Of a stretch of DNA of 39,612 nucleotides, positions 5,492 to 38,931 are shown one piece after another. The stretch lies in IMG/VR virus record IMGVR_UViG_3300027970_000889, positions 1 through 39,612 of that record, one strand, 5' to 3'. This DNA comes from a virus. A program made the position numbers and the translations under genes. Position 1 is the stretch's first letter. Each line of letters opens with the position of its first letter. The notes below the pieces were generated by a model. The model saw nothing but the letters and a program-made list of their open reading frames with translations. It was not told the DNA's origin and ran no database searches.

Positions 5492-6046
5492 ATGAAAATT
5501 ACTGAAGTACTAACAGAATCAAGCAAGATTTGTCCACAATGTGGAATGAGAGGTTGCACTTGCAAACCCGGAACTTGCAAATGCAAACCAAAGCCCGGCT
5601 ATCCAAAGAACATTGATGAAGCCGCTAATCCAGCACAACAAGCCGCTATTGCTATTAGTATGAAAAAGGCTGGTAAGAAGCCAAAAGATATACAAGAAGA
5701 AGATTTAGATGAGGATTGGCAAAAGGTCAACAAAAAAGACAAAACTGATGGCATGAGCAGTAAGGCTGTCAAAGCATATCGCAGAGAGAATCCAGGATCT
5801 AAACTAAAGACTGCTGTTACTACTAAGCCTTCAAAACTAAAGAAGGGTAGTAAAGCCGCTAAACGCCGTAAATCATTCTGTGCTAGAATGAGTGGAATGA
5901 AGAAGGCTCACGCAAGTGCTAAGACTAAACGAGATCCGGATAGCCCAATCAACAAAGCACTACGCAGATGGAACTGTGAAAGTGTACAACAGATGGAAAA
6001 ATTGGTAATGATTGCTGAACAGAAAATTAGAAACCTTAAGAAATAA
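5492..6046 (+). CDS. Cys-cluster and Lys-rich protein, putative packaged protein
   Basis: A 184-residue protein in three parts. Residues 1-10, MKITEVLTES, match the putative capsid-targeting signature, with LTE at 7-9. Residues 14-31 hold six cysteines (CPQCGMRGC, CTC, CKC), a likely zinc-binding knuckle. From about residue 85 to the end is a strongly basic domain (KGSKAAKRRKSFCARM, INKALRRWNC) that I associate with a phage domain of unknown function (DUF6321-like). IDE (41-43), IQE (67-69) and LDE (72-74) lie in the linker and fit prohead-protease cut sites, so maturation would release the zinc and basic parts separately. DNA binding inside the head is plausible but inferred. Confidence 0.78.
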   Translation: MKITEVLTESSKICPQCGMRGCTCKPGTCKCKPKPGYPKNIDEAANPAQQAAIAISMKKAGKKPKDIQEEDLDEDWQKVNKKDKTDGMSSKAVKAYRRENPGSKLKTAVTTKPSKLKKGSKAAKRRKSFCARMSGMKKAHASAKTKRDPDSPINKALRRWNCESVQQMEKLVMIAEQKIRNLKK

Positions 6047-6047
6047 C

Positions 6048-6725
6048 GTGAGAGCAAACGAATTCATCAGCGAAGCTATTAGCCGTAGAGACTTACTTAA
6101 AGGTGTAGCGGGTGCCGCCGCATTGGGCGCTACTGGTTTAGCTAAAGCAGGTGAATATCAAGATTTAGAAACTATAAAAAAACAACCTGACGTTTGGATG
6201 CCTAGATTCGAACAACTGCAACAACGTAGTAATGGTATGTTAGGTAAATTAATGCGAGCCGCCGGTCCAGAATGGGCACAAAGACTGACAGGGACAAAGG
6301 TTCGTGTTATGTCGAATGACCAATGGGTTCAAGGAAATGCTGACAATCGCACTGTCAGTCTTGACCTAACTGTGTTTTGGGATGCTCCTGATGCTACACT
6401 GGCATTTGCTATAGCACATGAACTGGGACACATTGCCCTAGGACACGGTTTTCAGCCTGATCTCGGGCAAGCACGTCGGGAAGAAATGGATGCTGACGAC
6501 TTTGCTATTAGGTTATGTAGGGCTTTGGGCTACAACAAAGTTGAGATGTTTAAGTTCTTGCATCAAAAACAATCTGATTACGACTTTTACAATAGTATAA
6601 CTAAACTGCCTAATAGCAGTCATCCTAGTTATGACCAACGAATCAATCGTGCAGGTCAAAAAGGATTTCAGTTGTCAAAAGGTGGAGTTAAACAAATGAA
6701 TACGCTAATGACACACTTAGCATAA
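6048..6725 (+). CDS. M48-like zinc metalloprotease with buried Tat-type signal
   Basis: The GTG at 6048 is chosen because it follows the previous stop by one base and gives the signature VRANEFISEA; an upstream in-frame ATG lies inside the preceding gene. Of 225 residues, 1-9 match the capsid-targeting signature with ISE at 7-9. SRRDLLKG (12-19), a hydrophobic stretch rich in Ala and Gly and AKA at 32-34 form a textbook twin-arginine signal. HELGH (124-128) followed by EEMDAD (146-151) is the M48 zinc and catalytic site. Cutting after residue 9 would leave the Tat signal at the new N-terminus, suggesting a protease packaged, delivered and exported to the periplasm. The enzyme class is clear; the route is inferred. 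Confidence 0.82.
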   Translation: MRANEFISEAISRRDLLKGVAGAAALGATGLAKAGEYQDLETIKKQPDVWMPRFEQLQQRSNGMLGKLMRAAGPEWAQRLTGTKVRVMSNDQWVQGNADNRTVSLDLTVFWDAPDATLAFAIAHELGHIALGHGFQPDLGQARREEMDADDFAIRLCRALGYNKVEMFKFLHQKQSDYDFYNSITKLPNSSHPSYDQRINRAGQKGFQLSKGGVKQMNTLMTHLA

Positions 6726-26635: not shown

Positions 26636-27208
26636 TTATTGAAAGATATGGTTATTTTTTTCTCCATAAATTTTGATATATTTTCCTGCAAGCATATCTG
26701 CCATTGCTTCAATTGGGCTACCGGGATAACTATCCCCGGGTTCAATCATATTTAGTTCACCTTGACGGACATGTACTAATTCATGGAATACTGTACGTAG
26801 TATATCTACAAGGTTACGATTTTTAGCATAGACCCAAATATTATCAGTACCCATTTGATGACCACCGGTATGATGATTAGTTTGAGCCTCTTCGGTATCC
26901 ATACTTAATTCAATAGATGGAGTAGATTTTAAATGTAATATTTTGGAGGCCCACTGAACAAACATATCAACTTCTCGTTGTAGTTCATTTTCACCAGCCT
27001 CATCTAGTTTATTTTTAATCCAACTGTCAGGGTTACGATGATATTTTTTGACAAATAAATCATGTAATGCTTTACCAGTAATTTTATGTTTACTAGCGAT
27101 TCTTCTCATTAGCCTGTCGATTGTATTATAGTCGTGCTTTTCTAAGCTAGGAAGTTTCTTTGCTAGCTCATTGGCAGGCGACTCTAATACAATCTGACTA
27201 AACCGCAT
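26636..27208 (-). CDS. HELVH zinc metallopeptidase-like protein, putative packaged protein
   Basis: A 190-residue protein. Residues 1-9 (MRFSQIVLE) fit the shared capsid-targeting signature. A helical domain with DYNTIDRLMRRIASKHKITG and LHDLFVKKY precedes LDE (68-70), a second candidate prohead-protease site. The zincin site is FHELVHVRQGE (141-151), with Glu 167 in PIEAMADMLAG as probable third ligand. This is the arrangement of compact gluzincin peptidases. It would be the second packaged peptidase in this window after the M48-like one at 6048-6725. Confidence 0.75.
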   Translation of the reverse strand: MRFSQIVLESPANELAKKLPSLEKHDYNTIDRLMRRIASKHKITGKALHDLFVKKYHRNPDSWIKNKLDEAGENELQREVDMFVQWASKILHLKSTPSIELSMDTEEAQTNHHTGGHQMGTDNIWVYAKNRNLVDILRTVFHELVHVRQGELNMIEPGDSYPGSPIEAMADMLAGKYIKIYGEKNNHIFQ

Positions 27209-27543: not shown

Positions 27544-27990
27544 TTAATTACACCAACTTTGTTTGGCTTCTCCGTAGTATTCTCTTGCAAATCCGTTTTG
27601 TATTAGCATCATTCTTAAACTTTGTCCATCAAGTAATATATCACCTAATACACGACCACCGTATTTATCCCAATCAGCGATAGCTACTTGACGTTTTTGT
27701 GCTTTACTGATAGCATTCTTTGTAAATGCAGTAGCGGCTTGACCACGTTGGTCTTCGCTTGGGCACATTGCTCTATGACCTTTTTCAGGTGTATCAACAC
27801 CAAATACACGAATACTTAGTTCTTGTTTTAAAGGTGGAGGTAAGAATGTTGCTTGAAATGCAACAGTATCCCCATCAATAATCCTAGTGATAGGAAAATC
27901 ATAGATGTTCATTGGCTTTTGCTTTTGTGCAAATGCAACACTAGTTAATGTTAGAATTACTAATATTATTATTTTTTTCATTTTTATCAT
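27544..27990 (-). CDS. Staphylococcal-nuclease-type (thermonuclease) with Sec signal peptide
   Basis: A 148-residue SNase-fold nuclease. Residues 1-21 form a Sec signal (MIKMKKIIILVILT then FAQ). Then IIDGDTV (37-43) with Asp 41, IRVFGVDTPE (60-69) with Arg 61, Asp 66 and Glu 69, and GGRVLGD (111-117) with Arg 113, so the calcium-dependent active site is complete. The domain ends with AREYYG. It would be exported and degrade DNA or RNA outside the cytoplasm, perhaps competing DNA or host DNA at lysis. The start overlaps the upstream stop as ATGA. Confidence 0.9.
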   Translation of the reverse strand: MIKMKKIIILVILTLTSVAFAQKQKPMNIYDFPITRIIDGDTVAFQATFLPPPLKQELSIRVFGVDTPEKGHRAMCPSEDQRGQAATAFTKNAISKAQKRQVAIADWDKYGGRVLGDILLDGQSLRMMLIQNGFAREYYGEAKQSWCN

Positions 27991-28532
27991 ATTACCTTAC
28001 GATTCTTTACTCTTTCAATATCAATACCAAACGGTGTCTTGTTTGTTATTGATTTAACTATTTTCTCAGTAGCACCTTGGCCAGGCTTTAGTTCTGCGGC
28101 AACTATTTGAAAGATATATCTGTTCTTCTTTACACCCAAGAACTCACCTACTAACACTTGATAGTTAGGATAGTTGGGTGTTAAATCTACTTTAGGATTT
28201 TCTTGTTCTTCTAAATAAAATACATCCTCATCTGAGGATACTTGCAATGTAGGATGTGCGGTTAATACAACATATGCATTTTCACCATAATTATCTTTTT
28301 GCTTGGCTATAGCTACTCCTAAATCAGTAGTTTTAACTACAAAAGTAATATATGGCATTTTCATTAGTTCATGTCCACGTCTAGTTTCTAACTTATGTAA
28401 TACTCGAAGGACTTTTTCTATGGGAATGTTACGTTCAGAACCATCACTTCTATCATTAATAAAGTGTTTGCTCACAACTAAATACCCGTCTGCAAAAGGT
28501 ATTTCCTTATTAATAAACTCTGTTGCTCTCAT
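27987..28532 (-). CDS. Unknown protein with weak capsid-targeting-like start
   Basis: 181 residues. The start MRATEFINKE is clearly related to the shared signature, but the residue-9 Glu is Lys and Glu follows at 10, so it may not be cut. The segment SKHFINDRSDGSERNIPIEK and VLRVLHKLETRR, followed by a strand-rich part with FVVKTT and YVVLTAHP, recalls small RelE/colicin-D-like ribonuclease folds (His, Arg-rich helix, then sheet). I would not assign the family firmly. Flanked by the nuclease and the amidoligase-like gene. Confidence 0.6.
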   Translation of the reverse strand: MRATEFINKEIPFADGYLVVSKHFINDRSDGSERNIPIEKVLRVLHKLETRRGHELMKMPYITFVVKTTDLGVAIAKQKDNYGENAYVVLTAHPTLQVSSDEDVFYLEEQENPKVDLTPNYPNYQVLVGEFLGVKKNRYIFQIVAAELKPGQGATEKIVKSITNKTPFGIDIERVKNRKVI

Positions 28533-28533
28533 A

Positions 28534-30876
28534 TTAGCTCATTATAGGTAATACTTCAATGTCTGTACCTTGATCGTACCCATTGTCTCTTAGCCATTGA
28601 ATAGCTACACGATTAGCATCACGTTGAACGTTACCTACTCCACTAAAGCGATGTACTTCTTGTCCATCAGCTAACACTTTCCAAGCACCAGTAAAGCCAC
28701 CGGCTGCACGTTGTTGTTGTATATCAGTTGTGCTACCTGGTGCGGGTGCTGGTTGATCCATACGTGATAGACCATAACCTCTTCTATCAATACCTTGTTG
28801 TAACAACCAAGCTTGAGCTTTTTCTCTTGCTTCTTCAACTGATGTAGCTTGGAATGTATAAACTATACTTTGGTCTGCTGTTCTGTATAGTTTGTAATCT
28901 TGTGTTTCACCACCTGTAGCACGAATAGGTTGTGCTAATATAGGCTCACTATCACCAACACGTCTTATACCAAACATATCTCTTGCTTGGAATGGTTGTA
29001 GTCTATGTGGTCCGTGTTCAAGGTAATCATTTAGACGAATCAATGCTTCTCTATCATTGGTAATGCCTTCAGCATCTTCTACCTTTCGGTTAGTATCCAA
29101 ATTGAATATTTCATACTTTGGTTCACTACTGTCGTCCCTTTCATACGGACGCAATGGCTTGGCAACCAATGAACTTCGATAGTCAGCCCAATTTGGATAA
29201 CCACCAATGGCTTTTTCTCTTGCTTCTTCTTTAGATAAGGCAACAACTTCTATACTAGCAGTACCACCAGGACTACGAACACTCCACCAATATTTTTTGC
29301 CGCCGGTAGTATCTTTCTTCAACTTGCGTTCTAGTTGTGCTTGCTGAACAAAGCTACGCAATGCAGCCTTAGGTAACTCACCTGCGGCATACTTAGCAAA
29401 GTATTGAATAGTGTCGGTACTATCTTTACTTGGTGCTAATAACTTATAAAGTTTTGTTAGATATTCTTTTCTATATTTCTGTGGATCAACTGCGGCATCT
29501 AATGCTACTACAAATCGTAACAACGTGTTTTCAATCTTAGGGATATCAGCATCTAACCAATCACCACCGGGACTACGAAACTCAATGTAGCCGTCTTTGG
29601 TATTGATACTTGTGTATTTGTGTGTTGCACCACTATGAACTAGTTTGCTAGCGATATCACTTAGTCCTTCTTTCATTCCATCTAACAACTTTTTAGCACT
29701 ATCTGGATTTTGTCTAATGTTATCTTTAACTTGTTTCAAAGCACTCTTACAAAAAGTGTTACCTTCACGGTCAAACTCTTTCAATATATATTCGTCACCT
29801 AACAATAATGCTAACTTAACATAGTCAAGTTTTTCTCTACTAAAGTCAGGTACACTTACATTAATATGTAATCCAGTGCTATCATTCGTGTAGCAACCTT
29901 TATCTTTCGCCCAAGCAACAACTTTGTTAAAGTCACTTATCATTTCATCTATGGGCATTGGTGGAGATACGAACTCTAATCCACCATCACTGGAATCGTC
30001 AGGCTCTAAGCTACCATCAGGCTCAACAACATAGTGACCTGCTTCTCTGCGAGCACCGTGATAACGTTCGCTTGTATTGACTGGCTTACCAATCATTCTG
30101 CTAAACTCATCACCAATATCATCAACGCTTAACTCACCACCGTTATCGGGATAATACCAATGTGGCCAACTAATATCATAGTTACTTTCAACGTCTTGCA
30201 TTGTATAAAGACCTTCACTTTCTAACCAATCGCTTTCGTCTGGCCAGTCAGTTTCATCCATCCACTTTTCACGTGCATTGTCATACAATCTTTCTTGATT
30301 GTCCCATTCTTCTTCAACAAATTGGTCACGCTTTTCTTCTACCATATCAGTAGCTTCTTTCCAGTGTTTCCAATCTTCGTTATTTTCTTTGTCTTTTAGT
30401 TTAGTTGTTTTTGCGCCGGCTTTGTTTGCCGCTTCTTTTTGTTCATCTGTTAAGCCTAACTGGTCATAAGCCTCATCTAGTGCGGCATCTTCATCAAACT
30501 CGCCTTCACTTTCAATATATTCACGTAGATAATCTTTACCTTCACTATCCCATTGTTCGCTACGTCTTTCATCAGCCCATTCGAGATAAGATTGAGTTAG
30601 TTCATCAACTAAACTTTCTACTTCTCTAAGACCATTGTAGTTACGGTCATAAAAAAAGTTGCGTATGTTTTGGATACTACCGGAACTCTCATCACTATCA
30701 TAATCAGCTTCTGGATCCCCGTCACCTTCTTCTTGTTTAACGTTTGGAACAATCATCTCAAATTCCATACCAGCCTGAGCACCAGTCTTGGCAGCTTCTT
30801 GCTTTAGTCGTGTAGGATTCATCGCTACTTCGTCAAGTACTTCTGTTTCTAATATTATAAAGTCTAGTGCTCTCAT
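28534..30876 (-). CDS. Putative amidoligase-like packaged protein, 780 aa
   Basis: Start MRALDFIILETEVLDE carries the shared signature with ILE (8-10) and LDE (14-16). AGMEFEM (35-41), DGGLEFVSPP (297-306), STGLHINVSV (333-342) and KYTSIN...IEFRSPGGDW (420-440) match, in order, the putative amidoligase family (COOH-NH2 ligase), whose members join an amine to a carboxylate using ATP. Residues 85-230 are a very acidic, Trp-rich insertion. From about 540 to 780 there are four short repeats of about 60 residues (WSVRSPGG, YEIFNLDT, YKLYRTAD, WKVLADGQ), each a strand pair plus A-rich helix. A substrate cannot be named. Expected location: virion interior, by its start. Confidence 0.72.
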   Translation of the reverse strand: MRALDFIILETEVLDEVAMNPTRLKQEAAKTGAQAGMEFEMIVPNVKQEEGDGDPEADYDSDESSGSIQNIRNFFYDRNYNGLREVESLVDELTQSYLEWADERRSEQWDSEGKDYLREYIESEGEFDEDAALDEAYDQLGLTDEQKEAANKAGAKTTKLKDKENNEDWKHWKEATDMVEEKRDQFVEEEWDNQERLYDNAREKWMDETDWPDESDWLESEGLYTMQDVESNYDISWPHWYYPDNGGELSVDDIGDEFSRMIGKPVNTSERYHGARREAGHYVVEPDGSLEPDDSSDGGLEFVSPPMPIDEMISDFNKVVAWAKDKGCYTNDSTGLHINVSVPDFSREKLDYVKLALLLGDEYILKEFDREGNTFCKSALKQVKDNIRQNPDSAKKLLDGMKEGLSDIASKLVHSGATHKYTSINTKDGYIEFRSPGGDWLDADIPKIENTLLRFVVALDAAVDPQKYRKEYLTKLYKLLAPSKDSTDTIQYFAKYAAGELPKAALRSFVQQAQLERKLKKDTTGGKKYWWSVRSPGGTASIEVVALSKEEAREKAIGGYPNWADYRSSLVAKPLRPYERDDSSEPKYEIFNLDTNRKVEDAEGITNDREALIRLNDYLEHGPHRLQPFQARDMFGIRRVGDSEPILAQPIRATGGETQDYKLYRTADQSIVYTFQATSVEEAREKAQAWLLQQGIDRRGYGLSRMDQPAPAPGSTTDIQQQRAAGGFTGAWKVLADGQEVHRFSGVGNVQRDANRVAIQWLRDNGYDQGTDIEVLPIMS

Positions 30877-32216
30877 TTTTTTAACTTATTCCATTTATCG
30901 TATATATAGTTTTTCAACTCTATTGTGTTCTTAAAACCATTGTCGTTCATATATTTAATCAACTTCACGGCACTAGCTCTATCTCCTGCGTCTGGCTTAC
31001 GTGCGTTACTTAAATCAACACCTATGTTATGATCGCCTGTTGTATCGTGATACCATAACAGGTTCTTTAGTTGTCTCTTAGCTCTATCGCTTAAGTATTC
31101 CTCTTTGTCTTTTTCAATCAACTCAATCCAAGGCTTAACAAAGTCTGTTGGCTTGCGAGTAGAACCTCTAGTTGGTTGACCCTTCAATACATCTTTAGCT
31201 TGGCTTGGCTGAACACTCTTGCGTGTATCTAACAATCTCCAAGCTTTTTCATCTGTATAAAGATATACTGGTATATCTCTTTTTTTAGCTGTTATCATTA
31301 GCTGTCGTGTTTGTGGGCTACGATATTCATTTTGTTCTTTTAGTAAGATATGTATCTCTGTAACAGGTGTCATTGGTATACTTGGCTCTTTGCTGAATAC
31401 TCTATCTTCTGATTCACGTGTTCTTGTGCCATCACTTTTTAACCAAGCACTATTCCAATAGTCTATTGGCTTAACAATGTATCTACTGTTGAACCAATCA
31501 CCGTTCATTTTAAACATTACACCACCAGTACCAACATATCTATGATAGTCACCGGTTGGTGTGCGTGTTAAACTTAAAAAGTATGGATAACCTTTTGGTG
31601 CATAATCTTCTTCGCTTGGATTACCTGTTACACTTGCAAGTTCAAAGTTGCCTGATTGTAGAATCTTTAATGCGGCACCGGTACTAGTGTAATGAAATAC
31701 TACACTAGTTGCACGTTCATTCAGTTGTTCATTTTCACTAAGTTTATTTTCAGGCTTGTCGTATGCTCTACGGTCAGTTAGTGTAAAAATCATTCCATCG
31801 TGTGGATCTTTTTTGCTATATAAGTCCCAATCAGGTAATAAACGCTTAATCATCTTAGCATATAATCCAATGCGACTATCTTCTTTGGCATTGAATGTTA
31901 TTTCTTCTACTTTATCAAGACCATATTTTTGTAAGAACTCGCGGGTAATATCAACCGCGGTAGACAATACTTCGGCTGAATTACCTGTACCTGTTGTGCC
32001 CCAAATATCCATTTCCTGTGGATCAGTATCTTTTCTACCCATCATAAACTGAACTTCCCATTTCTTAGGATTGGCATTGCGGGAAAACGCTTGCCAATGA
32101 TAAGTTCTATCGCCTACTGTAAAGTTTGCTCTAGCTTCTTCACCGCCGCGAAATTTCCATTCCCAGTTCTTTTTACCTTGCTGGAATAGTTCGTTTAAAA
32201 ACTCATTCGCTCGCAT
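30873..32216 (-). CDS. Two-domain packaged protein with ART-like C-terminal domain
   Basis: 447 residues. The start MRANEFLNELF has LNE at 7-9. Domain 1 (about 18-148) is shared with the protein at 36664-38883: WEVQF, TTGTGNS, VLSTAVDITREFLQKYG, ITFNAKEDSRIGLYAKM; the pattern resembles an acyltransferase (GNAT) fold but is not certain. LSENEQLNE (159-167) ends this domain with two further candidate protease cuts. Domain 2 begins VVFHYTSTGAALKILQSG (172-189), then YFLSLTR (212-218) and ESEDR (268-272), an order like the H-Y-...-E sites of ADP-ribosyltransferases. If so it recalls T4 Alt, a packaged ADP-ribosyltransferase. Both domain assignments are inference. Confidence 0.7.
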   Translation of the reverse strand: MRANEFLNELFQQGKKNWEWKFRGGEEARANFTVGDRTYHWQAFSRNANPKKWEVQFMMGRKDTDPQEMDIWGTTGTGNSAEVLSTAVDITREFLQKYGLDKVEEITFNAKEDSRIGLYAKMIKRLLPDWDLYSKKDPHDGMIFTLTDRRAYDKPENKLSENEQLNERATSVVFHYTSTGAALKILQSGNFELASVTGNPSEEDYAPKGYPYFLSLTRTPTGDYHRYVGTGGVMFKMNGDWFNSRYIVKPIDYWNSAWLKSDGTRTRESEDRVFSKEPSIPMTPVTEIHILLKEQNEYRSPQTRQLMITAKKRDIPVYLYTDEKAWRLLDTRKSVQPSQAKDVLKGQPTRGSTRKPTDFVKPWIELIEKDKEEYLSDRAKRQLKNLLWYHDTTGDHNIGVDLSNARKPDAGDRASAVKLIKYMNDNGFKNTIELKNYIYDKWNKLKK

Positions 32217-32656
32217 TACTCACGTTCTCGTTTTAATATAGAACGAATGAACCAAGCTTTCTTGCCGTACAAATCTTGTAGTTCGGCCATATAGTTTTCG
32301 ATACCGTGTTGATTCTCACTAGCTGCCTCATCAAACATTGCTGTTACTAACTTAAGCATTAATTCACAGTCTTGTAATGATTCAGCAAACATTAGTTCAG
32401 CACGTGGGATTTTAATTTGGTCTTCAATGATTGATAGTTCTGCGTATCTTGTTAAACTTCCGGGCGTATACGAACCTAATATTCTGATATATTCAGCAAT
32501 AGGGTCAATAGTAGCATTTACATCTTCGTACAATGTATTAAAGAAGTCGTGATATTGTGGAAAGTTGCTGCCTTCAACATTCCAATGAAAGTTCTGGCTT
32601 TTGATAGCAAAGCTTTGTGTACTAGCTAATAGTACTTTTAGATTATCTGATAACAT
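32216..32656 (-). CDS. dps: Dps-like ferritin-family DNA protection protein
   Basis: A 146-residue four-helix protein with the Dps signature NFHWNVEGSNFPQYHDFF (22-39) and DPIAEYIRILG (51-61). Ferroxidase ligands are kept with correct spacing: His 24, His 36, Asp 51 and Glu 55; the usual Asp four residues after the second His is Asn 40. Dps oxidises iron with peroxide and, in many bacteria, coats DNA; this copy lacks the basic tail used for DNA binding. It overlaps neighbours by one base and sits between two large virion-type genes, so it may be a virion or late product. Confidence 0.88.
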   Translation of the reverse strand: MLSDNLKVLLASTQSFAIKSQNFHWNVEGSNFPQYHDFFNTLYEDVNATIDPIAEYIRILGSYTPGSLTRYAELSIIEDQIKIPRAELMFAESLQDCELMLKLVTAMFDEAASENQHGIENYMAELQDLYGKKAWFIRSILKRERE

Positions 32657-35550
32657 TATTGTCCTTGCTTTAATAGTTCTTGTGCTTTCTCAACACTAAT
32701 CATAGGTCTTGGATGTGTGCCATTTACCACGCTCTGTAGATATTCTTTACTAAAGCCTTTTGGTGCTTCTGCTTTTGTAGGAGTTTGAGTTTGTACAGGT
32801 TGTGTGATATTGGGTTTGCCTGTTAAACGATTAATATTAGGATCATCACCGGGTGTAACTCTAGCATTAGCGCCGGCTGCTCCTAGTGCCATTGCCCCGG
32901 TTAATGCAGCCGCACCTAATTTCTGTTTCCAATTCTCGTCTACATTTTCATTAGAGTTTTTCTTTGTATTAACATTGATAGCTTTACCACTACGTTCTGG
33001 ATTAGGATCTTCTCTACGCTTACGTTGAGCGGCACTAGCACGACCTTTTTTACCTAGACTGTGAGCTTTTGCTTGTGGCAAACATTTTGGTTTACCTTCT
33101 CCGGGTTCTCTAGCACAAGGACCTTTAATATTGCCTTTAGTATCCATACGAACCCATTTTTCTTTATTGAACCAATCGTGCAAACTTTCATCCGCTTGTT
33201 CAATACCTTCTAGTATAGAACTTTCATTTTTCTTTCCACCGTTGCCCCAATTGCTTGCACCTTTTTTACGACACTTTACTAATGCACCACTGGCATAAGC
33301 ACTTGGCCATACTTTATAACGGCTCTTTACTTTATAGTAGCAAGCATCTTTCTTTTCGTTCATTATCATTTCACTGAACATTGGGCCATTACAATGTGGA
33401 CATTTTTCTTCCGTTATATCTTGCTCATATACATTCTTATCATACACAATACCTTCATCGTCATCGCCAATTAAATCAATAATTTTTAAGCTGTTAGTGT
33501 CACTATTATACTCTAAGTCAGGTAATCCGCGATATTTACTCATTGGTTTTTTAGAGTCATACCATGCTTCTCTTGCAATAGAATGTAAAAATAAAATATC
33601 CATGTCATCTTCAAATATAGAAGTTTCATAACCAAGTGCTTTAAATTGTGCTACATTTTGATTAAATATTTTAGTTTGTTCTTGTTGACTTAATTGTGCC
33701 ATTTGCCCTTGTGCGGCTGTTGGTACATAAGAACCTTCCCAAAATATTTCTAATGCAGTTTCACTTAATGCTTTAAGTTGTATGATGAGGTTTTTATTCA
33801 AAGGATTACGAGGTTGCATTGGAATAACCTCCCCTTCTTCTACACTTTCTTTTGGCACACAGTTGGGAACTTGTTTACCGCCCTTACTTTTCATACCTAC
33901 TTGCTTATGCGTATCCCAACATTTTTCATCTAGCTGTTCTTCATTAGTATTTTTTACACAGTTAGGATATGTTTTGCCAAACATTTTCTTGTTACCCTCT
34001 TTGTGATAACCTTTCCAACAGGCTTCATCTAAATTAGTATGGTCTACGTGTGTTTCACACATACCGCAGTCTTCACATACCATTTCCATTTCAATACTTT
34101 CATTGTGCTTTTTCTTACCAGCACAATGAGCCTTTTGACTGAAACCTTTAGGATGACTACAGTTGATACTACTCTTATACTTTTGACTCCAACCTTCATC
34201 AACACCTTTTGGTTTAGCATATGCGGCTTTGTTAGTCAATAATCTGTTCTTAACATACTCTAATGCTTTGTCTAGTTTTCTATTCAACTCAACATAGTTA
34301 TCTCTTGCACCATCACGTGCTAACATACTTGTATCAACACCGGCTTCAATGTTTGGTGTCAACAGACCCTTCTTATCAAGCTTTTGAACTAAGTTATCTA
34401 ATATACCTTGTTTTTCAATAGCTTTATCAAGTTGGCTTAATCTTGCTTTTAGTTCAGAATGTTTCTCACCTGGCATTGCTACCATAGGGGTAGATGTAGC
34501 TCTTTGTCTAAAATTAGGTTCTCTTGCTGTGAACTTAGAAACAGTATTTTGTTTAAAATCTTTTTCCCACTGCTCTAAATCAGCTATACGTTGTTGTTCA
34601 AGTTGTTGTTTAACTTGCTGTAATGCTTCTAATGATTTAGATTTTAGTTCATCACCCAAACTTTCTGGCAGTGGTTTATCTAACTTCTTTACATTAGGTT
34701 TACTTGGTGGATAGTAAGCTGACTTAGCTCTATTTTTTGTTCCTAATATTTGAGGATTGTTTACTCTAGGGTAAGTAGATTTGAATGTTTTTTGTTCTTC
34801 ATCATCTATATTTTTTGTTAATGCATTAATAACTCTTTGTTGTGTATTTTCATCTAATTGTGTTATTAATGATTTAGCTTTTTTATATACAACATTGATA
34901 TCTTCTTTGACAGTTTTTGTATCATTGGCAAACTGTTTCTTAGTTGCTTTAACAATACCACTGAAACGTTTATCAGCTTTCTTATAGTCACCTGCTAAAT
35001 CAGCTTTACCTGCATCTAATGCCGCCGCTGTTTTATATTGACTTAATTTCTCATTAGAGATTTCATCAAGTTGTTCTTCACTAACACCTTGACCTAATTG
35101 TTGTAAGTCACTTGTTAATACATCTTGCGTAACTTCACCTATACCTTTTGAAATTGTGATGCGAGAATATTTACGATCCTTACTCATAGCAACTACTTTT
35201 GATGGTTGTCCAAAATACTTAACGGTGTCACCAGTCTGTATATTTTTAATAGAAACACCACCAAGATTAACCGGCTTATCACCTGCAAAGTTACCTTGAT
35301 CTCCCCATGGATCATCTATACCTTCATTAGTACCAGTTGCTAATCTATCATGGTCTGCATCACGTTTTTGTTTTTGGCTTAGTTGATACATCTTTTTAGA
35401 GTATGCAACATCGTCATCAAATGTATCATCTTCTTGTGAACGATAGCTGGAACGACTTCTGCCACTACTAGCAACGGCATTTTGGTAATCCCAATCACTG
35501 TCGTAGTTATGTGGGTTGACTTCGTTTAGACCTTTAAGAATTTTGCTCAT
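32656..35550 (-). CDS. Large modular internal-virion-type polyprotein, 964 aa
   Basis: A very long multi-part protein. The start MSKILKGLNE has LNE at 8-10. Further [LIV]-x-E sites lie at domain borders: 161-163, 232-234, 450-452, 507-509, 540-542, 712-714, 870-872. Modules: a Gly/Ser-rich linker; a small beta domain (IQTGDTVKYFGQPSK); a helical LDEISNEKLSQY module (161-210) also found in the next gene; coiled coil (295-440); a PKGFSQKAHCAGKKK box; two repeats of CW...GK...PNCV (511-532, 544-565); a CPHC zinc knuckle; DACYYKVKSRYKVWPS and WVRMDTKGNIKGPC boxes (DUF5872-like). Residues 873-896 (NWKQK then a hydrophobic Ala/Gly run ending ANA) look like a signal peptide freed by a cut after VDE. 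No enzyme seen. Confidence 0.75.
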   Translation of the reverse strand: MSKILKGLNEVNPHNYDSDWDYQNAVASSGRSRSSYRSQEDDTFDDDVAYSKKMYQLSQKQKRDADHDRLATGTNEGIDDPWGDQGNFAGDKPVNLGGVSIKNIQTGDTVKYFGQPSKVVAMSKDRKYSRITISKGIGEVTQDVLTSDLQQLGQGVSEEQLDEISNEKLSQYKTAAALDAGKADLAGDYKKADKRFSGIVKATKKQFANDTKTVKEDINVVYKKAKSLITQLDENTQQRVINALTKNIDDEEQKTFKSTYPRVNNPQILGTKNRAKSAYYPPSKPNVKKLDKPLPESLGDELKSKSLEALQQVKQQLEQQRIADLEQWEKDFKQNTVSKFTAREPNFRQRATSTPMVAMPGEKHSELKARLSQLDKAIEKQGILDNLVQKLDKKGLLTPNIEAGVDTSMLARDGARDNYVELNRKLDKALEYVKNRLLTNKAAYAKPKGVDEGWSQKYKSSINCSHPKGFSQKAHCAGKKKHNESIEMEMVCEDCGMCETHVDHTNLDEACWKGYHKEGNKKMFGKTYPNCVKNTNEEQLDEKCWDTHKQVGMKSKGGKQVPNCVPKESVEEGEVIPMQPRNPLNKNLIIQLKALSETALEIFWEGSYVPTAAQGQMAQLSQQEQTKIFNQNVAQFKALGYETSIFEDDMDILFLHSIAREAWYDSKKPMSKYRGLPDLEYNSDTNSLKIIDLIGDDDEGIVYDKNVYEQDITEEKCPHCNGPMFSEMIMNEKKDACYYKVKSRYKVWPSAYASGALVKCRKKGASNWGNGGKKNESSILEGIEQADESLHDWFNKEKWVRMDTKGNIKGPCAREPGEGKPKCLPQAKAHSLGKKGRASAAQRKRREDPNPERSGKAINVNTKKNSNENVDENWKQKLGAAALTGAMALGAAGANARVTPGDDPNINRLTGKPNITQPVQTQTPTKAEAPKGFSKEYLQSVVNGTHPRPMISVEKAQELLKQGQ

Positions 35551-35551
35551 A

Positions 35552-36613
35552 TTACTTTTTACTAGTTATTTTATCTACTGCACGGTCAATACCAGCCTGA
35601 CGTTTTTCAATCTTAGCATCTTTCTCAAAACGACTTGCAGGTAATTTTGAATTGAATGCAGATGTAGCTACCCTAGCACCTTTTTGAAACTGTGTATTAC
35701 CTTTACGGTTTGCCATATCACCGGCTGCTGATTTTACATAACTTCCTAATGCTTGCGGGCTTAACTCGTCAAGTTGACTTTCACCCATCTCACCATTAGT
35801 CATAGCACCAGTAGTGCCTAAACTTTCAGTAGCACCTTGCTTACTATATGCATCAATCATTTGCCTAATATAGAAATTATAAAAACCACGACGGCTATTG
35901 TATTCTCTATCTCCTAGTACAGTCTTTAGTGCCTTTACAGCATCACCTACTTCTGCACCACGCATTATTTTTAATGCGTCAGTAACAAGTGAGTCACCTC
36001 TTTGATTGTTTTCTGTAACACTTCGTAGTTGTTTACCTTCTAGGTATTCACGTACTGTGTTTAGATAGTCATTGGCTTTGATAATCTTTTCTTGTACCCA
36101 GCCTTCTAAGCCTTCTTCTTCACTAACACTTCTTACGATGTTATAGATTTTCTCAGCGTTCTTACCTGCACTGAATAAATCACTCACAGCCATTTCTACT
36201 TCGTGGTCTGTTCTATCTTTATCGTGTGATATAAAACCTGTCTTTACACTACGCCCTTGACCTGGCACAACGATTAAGTCTTGTTCGCTTAAGTCAGCTT
36301 CATTGACTGGTGGAGTTGGCTTTTGAGGTTGCTTGCTCATAGAAGCTTTCATTTCTTCTCTAGTTTTACCGTATTTCTTTTGAAATTCAGCTGGCTTCAT
36401 AGTCTGTAAGTCATACGCTAAATCTTTCATTGCGGCTTCGTTTAAGCTATTAGCAAATGGCTTGCTAGTTTTCTTACCTTTAAGTAGGTTGCCTACTTTA
36501 TTGCCACCGTAAACACTTGGGTTACGACTTTGCATTTTGACGAAACCGTGTTCTGTAGGTGCTATTGAACCTGCTGTTGTACTTGTTTCTTGGATAATTT
36601 GACTGATTTTCAT
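35552..36613 (-). CDS. Putative internal capsid / scaffold-associated protein, 353 aa
   Basis: Start MKISQIIQETSTT has IQE at 7-9. A further LNE lies at 57-59 (NSLNEAAMKD) and SQLDE near the C-terminal module. The middle (about 136-195) is helical: DHEVEMAVSDLFSAGKNAEK then WVQEKIIKANDYLNTVREYL, a pattern I associate with marine T4-like phage proteins of unknown role. The C-terminal LDELSPQALGSYVKSAAGD module repeats one in the 964-residue protein. Preceded by a GATAAATAC box and a GGGA site, so probably a late gene. Confidence 0.7.
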   Translation of the reverse strand: MKISQIIQETSTTAGSIAPTEHGFVKMQSRNPSVYGGNKVGNLLKGKKTSKPFANSLNEAAMKDLAYDLQTMKPAEFQKKYGKTREEMKASMSKQPQKPTPPVNEADLSEQDLIVVPGQGRSVKTGFISHDKDRTDHEVEMAVSDLFSAGKNAEKIYNIVRSVSEEEGLEGWVQEKIIKANDYLNTVREYLEGKQLRSVTENNQRGDSLVTDALKIMRGAEVGDAVKALKTVLGDREYNSRRGFYNFYIRQMIDAYSKQGATESLGTTGAMTNGEMGESQLDELSPQALGSYVKSAAGDMANRKGNTQFQKGARVATSAFNSKLPASRFEKDAKIEKRQAGIDRAVDKITSKK

Positions 36614-36663: not shown

Positions 36664-38883
36664 TTAAGAGATTTTGCCTGATGGCTTTGCTGTTGGAGGA
36701 ATACCAGCTCTAGTTGTGAGCCAGCCGAACGCTTTTGCATTCTTTTTGATACTATATGGATTAACATCTACTGTTAATGCTGTCTTAAAACGTGGGTCGT
36801 TTTTCTGTTTTTCGCTTGGAATGTAGCCAGACGCTTCATTAATCGGCTGTTTTAATATCTCAATGACTTTATCTGCGGCATCTTTTATTGCTTGGTCATA
36901 TCCCATTTCATCTGCTTCTTCGCTAGATTTACCTAAGAACGGTTTAAGCATACTCTTAGCAACATCCAACATTACTTTTTTCTCGTCGGGATGATTGTAT
37001 ATTCGTTGTAATTGGCTTTCACGTTGGAAATAACTAGACCAACCAATAGCATCAGCTAATCCTTGTATATCGTATCGTCTATGTTGTAGTGTTGGATTAC
37101 GATTATCAAACATCTTATGTTGTTTAATAATACGTGGATCTAACACAACTCCTTGTGTTGGTTCATTGTAAGCAATCCAACCACCACCGTCGTCATACAC
37201 ACTGGTAAAGCCTAAATCACGCAATACTTTATTCCAACGAACAACATTAGTTTCATCATTTTGTCCTAGTCTACTTAAGCAGTCATAGATAAACCAGTAT
37301 GGTGTACCATCGTATTCATCTTCTTCACTTGCTTGTTGTATTACTTCTTCAGGGCAATATTGACTTAATACTTGTTTTAGTTTAGCAAGATCAACTTTAG
37401 TTTGTTTAGTCATTTCGCCTGAACGGTTATACTGAAACAACTGTAGATAGGGGAAGTTATCTCCCCAAGGCAATGATTCATCACGGTCAGCCATTTGCAT
37501 AAAATATCTTAATGGATAAAAGTAAATGCCTTTGGGGGTGTCTTCACTAACAGCCGCACGTGGATTAATACCTAACTTGGGCTCCATAGTCATACTAACA
37601 GCCCAGTTATCTTTATCATCAATATTATCTTCGGCGTAATTAATAAGGTCATATTTTCCAGAGCCACTTTTTCTATTCTGTTCTGGGTTTCTACGTGCTT
37701 CTTCTACGTCTTTTTTTATCTTACTCAATTCGTAGATAACTTTGTTGCCGGTGTCTGCACGGAACGCTTTAAATCCCCAAGACTTGGCATAGCGTTGAAC
37801 TAATCTATCATACAAGCTGGATCTACTTTCTGCATTCTGTCCTTGTTCAACTTCTTTACTGGCTGAAAAGATTACACGATTAGGCTTATACTTTTTAATA
37901 AATGTTTGAATAGCACTTAACACAGTGGCAAATACACGTTGTGCATCACCTTCGCCTGTGACTTCCTGGCTATTGTTTCTATAGAATTCAACACTCCAGG
38001 CTTCCTCTTTTGAATCTTTACTGACTCCCTTGTTGAACATAATACTTAGAAAGGTGTTGTCATCTAATCGTGCTATTGCGTCTACATCACCGTAGTCACC
38101 CTTTTCCCATCTAAGTATTTTATAAGGTTTATCAAATGCTTCATTGACCTCATCATTGATAGGCTGATACATCGTTTCGATAGTTAACTTCTCACTATGT
38201 AATTTGTCACGCAAATCATATAACTTAGTGATGTAACCCTGTACTCTTAATGCTTTATATGCTAGATTCTCAGGACCAAACTCACCACCTTTATCTAGTC
38301 CAGCTTGACGATAACGTTTGATAGTTTGTAATACTTGTTTTACTTTACTTAATTTCTTTGACTTTAATGCATATTCTGCTAGTTTTAATAACTTTTCATA
38401 TTTCTGTTTAGTAGCAGTTTGGTCTAAATTACTTCTACGTTTAGTAGGAATTCTAAGCCACTTGTCTTTTAATATGCTGTATTCGCCTAAACTAATTACA
38501 GGTTCGTTGCTATCTTGCACATACAATTCTACTGGAATTCCGTGAACTTTAATGTTGTGTGAATCATTGTATATTGTTTTTTTAGCGTGAAATAGCTCTT
38601 GGTATATCTCATCGTCTGGATACTGACTTAAATCAACTAATATATGTAAGTCTAAGTCGCTGTTGGGCGTATAGCTGTAAGCCGCATTAGATCCGGATAT
38701 AGTTATATCTTTAACATCTAAATCTTTAATGCCTAACTCTTGCAAAAAATCTTGTGCTATAACTTTTAATTGATCGGATACGTCAGCTTGTAGGTAAGTG
38801 CCACGAAATAACTTTGGGTTAAGTTGGTCGTGAAATGTGATTGCATCCGACATTTTAAATGAGTCGAGTTCTTTTAAGTCCAT
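36664..38883 (-). CDS. Nucleotidyltransferase-headed multidomain phage protein, 739 aa
   Basis: The ATG at 38881-38883 (MDLKELDSFKMSDAITFHDQ) is preferred to an in-frame TTG 27 bases upstream; a GCTAAATAC late-like box (38887-38895) sits just before it. Domain 1 (1-200) is a polymerase-beta-type nucleotidyltransferase: SGSNAAYSYTPNSDLDLHI with the two metal Asp residues. A VNEA linker then leads to domain 2, shared with the 447-residue protein (WSVEF, VTGEGDA, VFATVLSAIQTF, SRSSLYDRL). Domain 3 has PKLGINPRAAVSEDTPKGIY and LPWGDNFPYLQLFQY, unknown. Near the C-terminus INE precedes ASGYIPSEK. No capsid signature at the start. Target of the nucleotidyltransferase unknown. Confidence 0.72.
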   Translation of the reverse strand: MDLKELDSFKMSDAITFHDQLNPKLFRGTYLQADVSDQLKVIAQDFLQELGIKDLDVKDITISGSNAAYSYTPNSDLDLHILVDLSQYPDDEIYQELFHAKKTIYNDSHNIKVHGIPVELYVQDSNEPVISLGEYSILKDKWLRIPTKRRSNLDQTATKQKYEKLLKLAEYALKSKKLSKVKQVLQTIKRYRQAGLDKGGEFGPENLAYKALRVQGYITKLYDLRDKLHSEKLTIETMYQPINDEVNEAFDKPYKILRWEKGDYGDVDAIARLDDNTFLSIMFNKGVSKDSKEEAWSVEFYRNNSQEVTGEGDAQRVFATVLSAIQTFIKKYKPNRVIFSASKEVEQGQNAESRSSLYDRLVQRYAKSWGFKAFRADTGNKVIYELSKIKKDVEEARRNPEQNRKSGSGKYDLINYAEDNIDDKDNWAVSMTMEPKLGINPRAAVSEDTPKGIYFYPLRYFMQMADRDESLPWGDNFPYLQLFQYNRSGEMTKQTKVDLAKLKQVLSQYCPEEVIQQASEEDEYDGTPYWFIYDCLSRLGQNDETNVVRWNKVLRDLGFTSVYDDGGGWIAYNEPTQGVVLDPRIIKQHKMFDNRNPTLQHRRYDIQGLADAIGWSSYFQRESQLQRIYNHPDEKKVMLDVAKSMLKPFLGKSSEEADEMGYDQAIKDAADKVIEILKQPINEASGYIPSEKQKNDPRFKTALTVDVNPYSIKKNAKAFGWLTTRAGIPPTAKPSGKIS

Positions 38884-38931
38884 AGTGTATTTAGCTGTTA
38901 ACAAATACAAATGAAAAAGAGCTGAATTATG

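Follow-up and report, generated by a model that had tools for sequence, protein, structure and literature searches.

Proteins that are packaged into the phage head, cut there by a gp21-type protease and ejected into the next cell are already known from T4 and from giant phages, and multi-domain delivered proteins have been described as well (PMC5512222). In the passages of PMC9026906 on T4 internal proteins, the first ten residues of IPIII are enough for packaging, gp21 cuts after L/I-x-E, and the C-terminal part of the capsid-targeting sequence (CTS) directs processing. The heads of large phages such as phiKZ and SPN3US are full of ejected proteins that are cut by a gp21-like protease, and for these ejection proteins no leader for export after cleavage is described in the relevant passages of PMC9026906 and PMC5694885. 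The polyvalent proteins of phages and plasmids (Iyer et al. 2017, PMC5512222), some of which contain peptidase or lysozyme domains, are long and multi-domain and are believed to be packaged and to enter the cell together with the DNA; in the text of that paper, Tat, signal peptides or export leaders behind prohead-protease sites were not found. In open-licence papers, no description was found that links phages, capsid targeting and the twin-arginine motif.

The locus described here lies on a 39.6-kb IMG/VR fragment, called the window below. It seems to originate from a large freshwater bacterial virus of a jumbo T4-like lineage. The isolates nearest to its DNA polymerase are jumbo phages of Sinorhizobium, Agrobacterium, Vibrio, Xanthomonas and Klebsiella, with 49% identity at best. 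The polymerase is 97% identical to that of G109 (a 525-kb record), 93% to that of G001, and 54-85% to those of the remaining Tat-bearing records where a polymerase was found. G109 is the closest long relative and encodes gp21 (1.9e-27) and gp23 (4.4e-99); its gp23 carries LLAE/SS (the slash marks the cut, here and below) at the T4 gp23 cut position, placed by eye. No gp21 gene is present in the window or in its shortest relatives. G109 may be a joined assembly, since the polymerase occurs twice in it, near opposite ends and in opposite orientation (97 and 92% identity to the window polymerase). The exact CTS pattern is absent from five polymerase-nearest jumbo isolates (Phosso, Atu_ph07, Vibrio 2.275.O, XaC1 and RaK2), and the one Tat protein of Phosso is of the ordinary N-terminal type.

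The gene of interest combines three elements without a spacer between them:

6048..6725, + strand: CTS-Tat-M48 metalloprotease gene, 225 aa, GTG start
6048..6074, + strand: capsid-targeting sequence MRANEFISE by the T4 CTS rule, residues 1-9, predicted prohead-protease cut after E9
6075..6149, + strand: Tat signal peptide, residues 10-34 (AISRRDLLKGVAGAAALGATGLAKA), with RR at 6084-6089 and AKA at 6141-6149
6417..6485, + strand: M48 zinc site HELGH (6417-6431) and downstream EExxDAD, likely third ligand at ~6480-6485

The translation opens VRANEFISEAISRRDLLKGVAGAAALGATGLAKAGEYQ..., so that the N-terminus of the protein is (M)RANEFISEAISRRDLLKGVAGAAALGATGLAKAGEYQ. The GTG start is supported by an ATG in the same place in the relatives L034-L036. 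An alternative start, TTG at 6012, was set aside because L034 has a stop two codons upstream of the matching ATG.

Residues 5-9 (EFISE) follow the pattern of the capsid-targeting sequence of T4 IPIII, MKTYQEFIAE/A. The predicted head-protease site of the I-x-E type, at which MRANEFISE/A ends, is the sole [ILV]xE of the whole protein. The Tat signal behind it reads ISRRDLLKGVAGAAALGATGLAKA and has the RR motif, the short hydrophobic region and the AxA of a Tat substrate. With TIGR01409 the full-length product scored 20.0 bits, above the NCBIfam cut-off of 16.7, and with PF10518 it scored 20.5 bits, slightly below the Pfam cut-off of 22.7; a 75-aa piece from residue 8 on gave 22.1 and 22.7, respectively. 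These near-equal scores indicate that trimming matters little to the Tat HMM. PF01435 (M48) was matched above its cut-off (E=1.8e-8), and HELGH and EExxDAD are invariant, as expected for an M48 metallopeptidase. Thus, the assignments made in the first-pass annotation, namely a capsid signature in residues 1-9, a twin-arginine signal directly after the predicted cut, and a metalloprotease, are all borne out.

The AlphaFold model of the protein (pLDDT 56) gives a rough M48-like core only; the folds closest to this low-confidence model are selecase(s) and BepA, with no match at E 0.001. BepA is a periplasmic protease. The phage enzyme shares the M48 fold and HExxH with the bacterial periplasmic M48 proteases BepA and LoiP, and the profile models of both match it weakly. 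Unlike them, it is short, single-domain and placed behind a CTS.

Relatives of the M48 protein were found on 17 contigs, all of which retain the [ILV]xE cut site and RR. Fifteen of them are stand-alone proteins with CTS and RR and the motif RAN/RAS-EFI[SDN]E; three of these are only ~66% identical overall and have almost the same leader, MRA[NS]EFINE/DI[NS]RRDLLKGVAGAA. In the other two, L009 and L012, a CTS-bearing domain of ~290 residues precedes the M48 protein in one fused chain, and the old CTS is without its phenylalanine, while LAE/AISRR and VSE/AINRR, respectively, are kept ahead of RR. The first-pass annotation had regarded homologues lacking the RR or the capsid motif as evidence against its proposal. 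The cut site and RR held throughout; the capsid motif departed from this in L009 and L012, where it now heads the new upstream domain. CTS-bearing domains at 4152-5018 of L009 and 2414-2992 of L044 look ADP-ribosyltransferase-like by eye; a Pfam search gave no match for the L044 domain or in that part of L009. In a comparison with L034, codon changes in the leader numbered 8 synonymous and 3 non-synonymous, against 43 and 69 in the rest of the protein (Fisher p 0.05, and 0.03 for L036), which indicates a constraint on the leader at least equal to that on the enzyme. No cellular relatives were found in genome contigs by the method used, tblastn searches of 50,697 phage records with the M48 protein and with the cassette gave no match, and the exact CTS+RR DNA pattern found nothing in IMG/VR beyond this M48 protein family.

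Related M48 modules, 29-33% identical to that of the window, occur in L146 and L394. L146 has MRAIEFLTE ... SLEE/VDRRGFLKG, M48 and DUF6321 in one chain, which corresponds to the window M48 gene plus its upstream DUF6321 gene, with DUF6321 behind Tat-M48. L394, encoded in G109, is a homologue of the window gene 36664-38910, with flanks that are 72 and 78% identical. Its Tat-M48 module stands between VDE/DISRR and LAE/ASGYIPSEK; the window gene has a different module in its place and resumes with INE/ASGYIPSEK. The alignment of the window M48 protein with L394 begins at residue 7, at the cut site. Based on this exchange and on where the alignment starts, the mobile unit comprises cut site, leader and enzyme. 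L009, L146 and L394 are long and multi-domain, as polyvalent proteins are; the 225-aa product of the window gene is not.

At least five further window proteins have a CTS-type start (MRATEFINKE, MRALDFIILE, MRANEFLNE, MKISQIIQE and MKITEVLTE). The genes with such starts and the polyproteins of the window are:

5492..6046, + strand: DUF6321 protein (PF19846, 3.6e-12), start MKITEVLTE/SS, internal LxE sites
26636..27208, - strand: CTS-like protein by its N-terminal motif, MRFSQIVLE/S
27987..28532, - strand: CTS-like protein by its N-terminal motif, MRATEFINKE
28534..30876, - strand: amidoligase-domain protein (PF12224, 2.9e-10) with CTS, MRALDFIILE/T
30873..32216, - strand: CTS-bearing protein by its N-terminal motif, MRANEFLNE/L
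32656..35550, - strand: 964-aa polyprotein, start MSKILKGLNE/V, 18 [ILV]xE sites
32863..32934, - strand: internal Sec-like leader VDE/NWKQKLGAAALTGAMALGAAGANA, residues 873-896 of the 964-aa polyprotein, directly behind an LxE-type site
35552..36613, - strand: CTS-like protein MKISQIIQE/TS, several LxE sites
36664..38910, - strand: polyprotein homologous to L394, likely true start ATG at 38883

The DUF6321 gene lies directly upstream of the M48 gene, the stop of the former being separated by a single base from the start of the latter, and its homologue in L013 contains an inserted Tat module. DUF6321 proteins are common in T4-like cyanophages and found in some pelagiphages; in P-TIM68 one is located at the terminase large-subunit gene. 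The amidoligase-domain product is a possible head-delivered ligase. Two other proteins are encoded among these genes, a small nuclease-like protein (27544-27990, - strand) with a conventional Sec-type signal at its N-terminus (MKKIIILVILTLTSVAFAQ) and no CTS, and a 146-aa protein (32216-32656, - strand) that is Dps/ferritin-like by eye.

IMG/VR was scanned for RRGFLKGxGAA, a pattern that is blind to the upstream side, which yielded 47 matches in total, 38 of them distinct. An [ILV]xE was present 2-4 residues ahead of RR in 34 of these 38; L352, L357, L367 and one match in L366 (TDE/AID) were without it. A random position in the same polyproteins meets this criterion 4.6% of the time, and among bacterial Tat leaders, used as a control, the site was found in 3 of 114 (Fisher p=5e-26 versus 34/38). 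The 34 cases are not fully independent, since many cassettes are clearly related (GVAEGSLEE/IDRRGFLKG...), and divergent cut-site and leader forms also exist: FISE/AISRRDLLKG, FIAE/IDRRGFLGALG, IISE/LNRRDFLKK and VNE/AGMNRRGFLKGAAATTAAGVAGC. Many of the sites have V in the P3 position, which is not a known preference of T4 gp21; when P3 was restricted to I or L, 26 of the 38 still counted. Most matches lie deep in polyproteins, up to 994 residues into the open frame, and 28 of the 38 leaders end in AxA or a lipobox. Many polyproteins with Tat or Sec-like leaders have CTS-like N-termini. A second scan with RRDFLKGxGA gave 8 distinct matches, with the site in 4.

A search with TIGR01409 covered 108 viral records that had been fetched for a CTS, related motifs or relatives. 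Outside the window M48 family, nine Tat leaders in CTS-bearing records had [ILV]xE 2-4 residues before RR (L146, L044, L068, L013, L034, L174, L183, L320 and L333), and the Tat leader of one CTS-bearing record, L056, had no such site. L056 and L336 (MSITRRAFLK) and L334 (PhoX-like by eye) were regarded as ordinary Tat proteins and excluded from the layout cases. L161 and L164 form a separate group with a 318-aa protein that has LEE/AINRRDFLKGLG at residue ~30 and no clear CTS at its start. Within a GP88 polyprotein at position 8129 of L034 (+ strand), a Tat leader has a lipobox end (GVAGC), and the product is a possible head-delivered lipoprotein. Taken together, conservation in the 17 relatives, the scan that ignored the upstream side and the bacterial control confirm at the sequence level that the arrangement of CTS, cut site and Tat signal in the window gene is more than chance.

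Leaders of a different type are found in the same position. Behind cut sites in seven places, all internal and one of them in the window, L/V-x-E is directly followed by [GND]WKxxL, a hydrophobic stretch and AxA, and the type of leader at 32863-32934 of the window also stands behind LxE in L127, L341, L370, L372 and L375. A small domain with the signature LGxGFVxTTIxVAGHxxxAVxD is preceded by a Tat leader in L337 and L344 and by a Sec-like leader in L375. The occurrence of such unlike leaders at one position of one cargo domain argues for both types being export signals and for the importance of that position. Cargo of known family is of the envelope type, and most other cargo has no known family. 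The known families are M48 (window, L146 and L394), GH19 (L044 and L068; 1.7e-11 and 4e-13), LysM plus SLT (L338; 3e-10 and 4e-9) and, Tat-led in L356, L358 and L366, TonB_2 (PF13103, the TonB/TolA C-terminal domain; about 1e-18). The latter may disturb Ton or Tol function, and as cargo they hint at interference with envelope uptake, perhaps as a means to keep rivals out.

That the M48 protein is packaged, cleaved, ejected, exported and active in the periplasm is inferred here from these sequences, and we assign a probability of about 0.6 to the reading that it is head-packaged cargo which the prohead protease trims, which enters the new cell together with the DNA and which the new host then exports. 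Its first nine residues would carry it into the prohead core, and at head maturation a gp21-type protease would cut after ISE, creating the new N-terminus AISRRDLLKG.... The trimmed metalloprotease would stay in the head, leave it with the DNA and be exported by the Tat system of the next cell; following removal of the leader by signal peptidase at AKA, its M48 domain would act in the periplasm. Tat moves folded, finished proteins, and would therefore suit head-delivered cargo, which has already been made. Polyproteins would hold several cargo modules between LxE sites, those bound for the periplasm being led by a Tat or Sec-like leader that becomes N-terminal only once cleaved. As in T4 IPI-IPIII and Alt, there is a short N-terminal targeting sequence with an L/I-x-E cut, and the cargo is expected in the head and then ejected (compare the T4 passages of PMC9026906). 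Unlike the T4 internal proteins with their cytoplasmic cargo, the cut would be followed by an export address read by the host, and storage in polyproteins is frequent.

The first-pass annotation had further proposed that the signal is buried until the cut. The order of CTS, cut site and Tat signal agrees with this, and the signal, in residues 10-34, would be N-terminal only given a cut at E9; masking by nine residues finds no support in the HMM scores, which are nearly the same with and without them. Moreover, in at least one case, the Streptomyces Rieske membrane protein (PMC13186574), Tat reads a signal that is internal, and together with these scores this suggests that nine residues may not hide the window leader. 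If they do not, packaging would compete with export and would not be gated by cleavage. Hiding by upstream residues is likelier for leaders that lie hundreds of residues deep; a leader buried in this way would probably be silent in the producing cell, keeping the cargo for the head.

In a rival scenario, the producing cell itself would export the protein through Tat at a late stage of infection, and the protein would help to weaken the envelope ahead of lysis; its capsid motif would be incidental or would serve to package only a fraction. We consider this rather unlikely. The near-independence of the Tat score from the nine extra residues speaks for it, as do very short leaders such as MKITE/IDRRGFLKG (L338), which resemble plain Tat n-regions, and GH19 and LysM+SLT cargo, which are typical lysis enzymes; however, it leaves unexplained why leaders lie hundreds of residues deep and almost always behind LxE, and why so many polyproteins have CTS-like N-termini. 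The RR-hydrophobic segment adjoins the cut, and in T4, according to a passage of PMC9026906, proheads leave the membrane after gp21 maturation, which would fit a membrane or core anchor for prohead building on the inner membrane that is freed by cleavage. This is very unlikely, given that a Tat model is matched above its cut-off, that 28 of 38 leaders have an AxA or lipobox end, that a Sec-like leader replaces Tat on the same domain (L375 versus L344) and that the segment stands ahead of envelope-type domains.

That the leader is a relic of captured host periplasmic enzymes, with no role since and with cytoplasmic cargo, appears highly improbable. M48, GH19, LysM/SLT and TonB_C are indeed all bacterial envelope families, but the leader is no less constrained than the enzyme, and its cassette is common to unrelated cargo and set precisely behind cut sites. 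Most improbable is that the nine-residue start is not a CTS and that LxE-like strings before RR are a habit of the lineage without cleavage: against the V-x-E sites, which fall outside the T4 consensus, stand the fit of the CTS to T4, the background of only 4.6%, and the presence in G109, the nearest long relative, of gp21 and of a gp23 whose LxE coincides with the T4 cut position. Delivery in the head followed by export in the new host remains the preferred reading for the M48 protein.

For the jumbo T4-like lineage as a whole, we give even odds to maturation-gated export, in which silent Tat and Sec-like leaders would be exposed by the prohead protease and periplasm-bound enzymes and TonB/TolA-like domains would be delivered and exported by the host at the start of infection. 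This would explain why predictors of N-terminal signals see nothing, the signals being placed after a cut site or far inside a polyprotein. In a Klebsiella screen (PMC13412088), mutation of tatC improved fitness in the presence of three phages, and SignalP 6.0 detected no Tat signal on the phage side. Hidden signals are worth checking in those phages, as a lead and not as evidence; nothing ties them to the present system. The main interest goes beyond the window gene and lies in a modular layout that recurs across a whole jumbo-phage lineage, with dozens of polyproteins carrying a leader behind a site. Phages inject proteins into the cytoplasm, and tail enzymes act from outside. If the reading is true, some phages would reach the periplasm from inside, early, with ready-made proteins and via host export.
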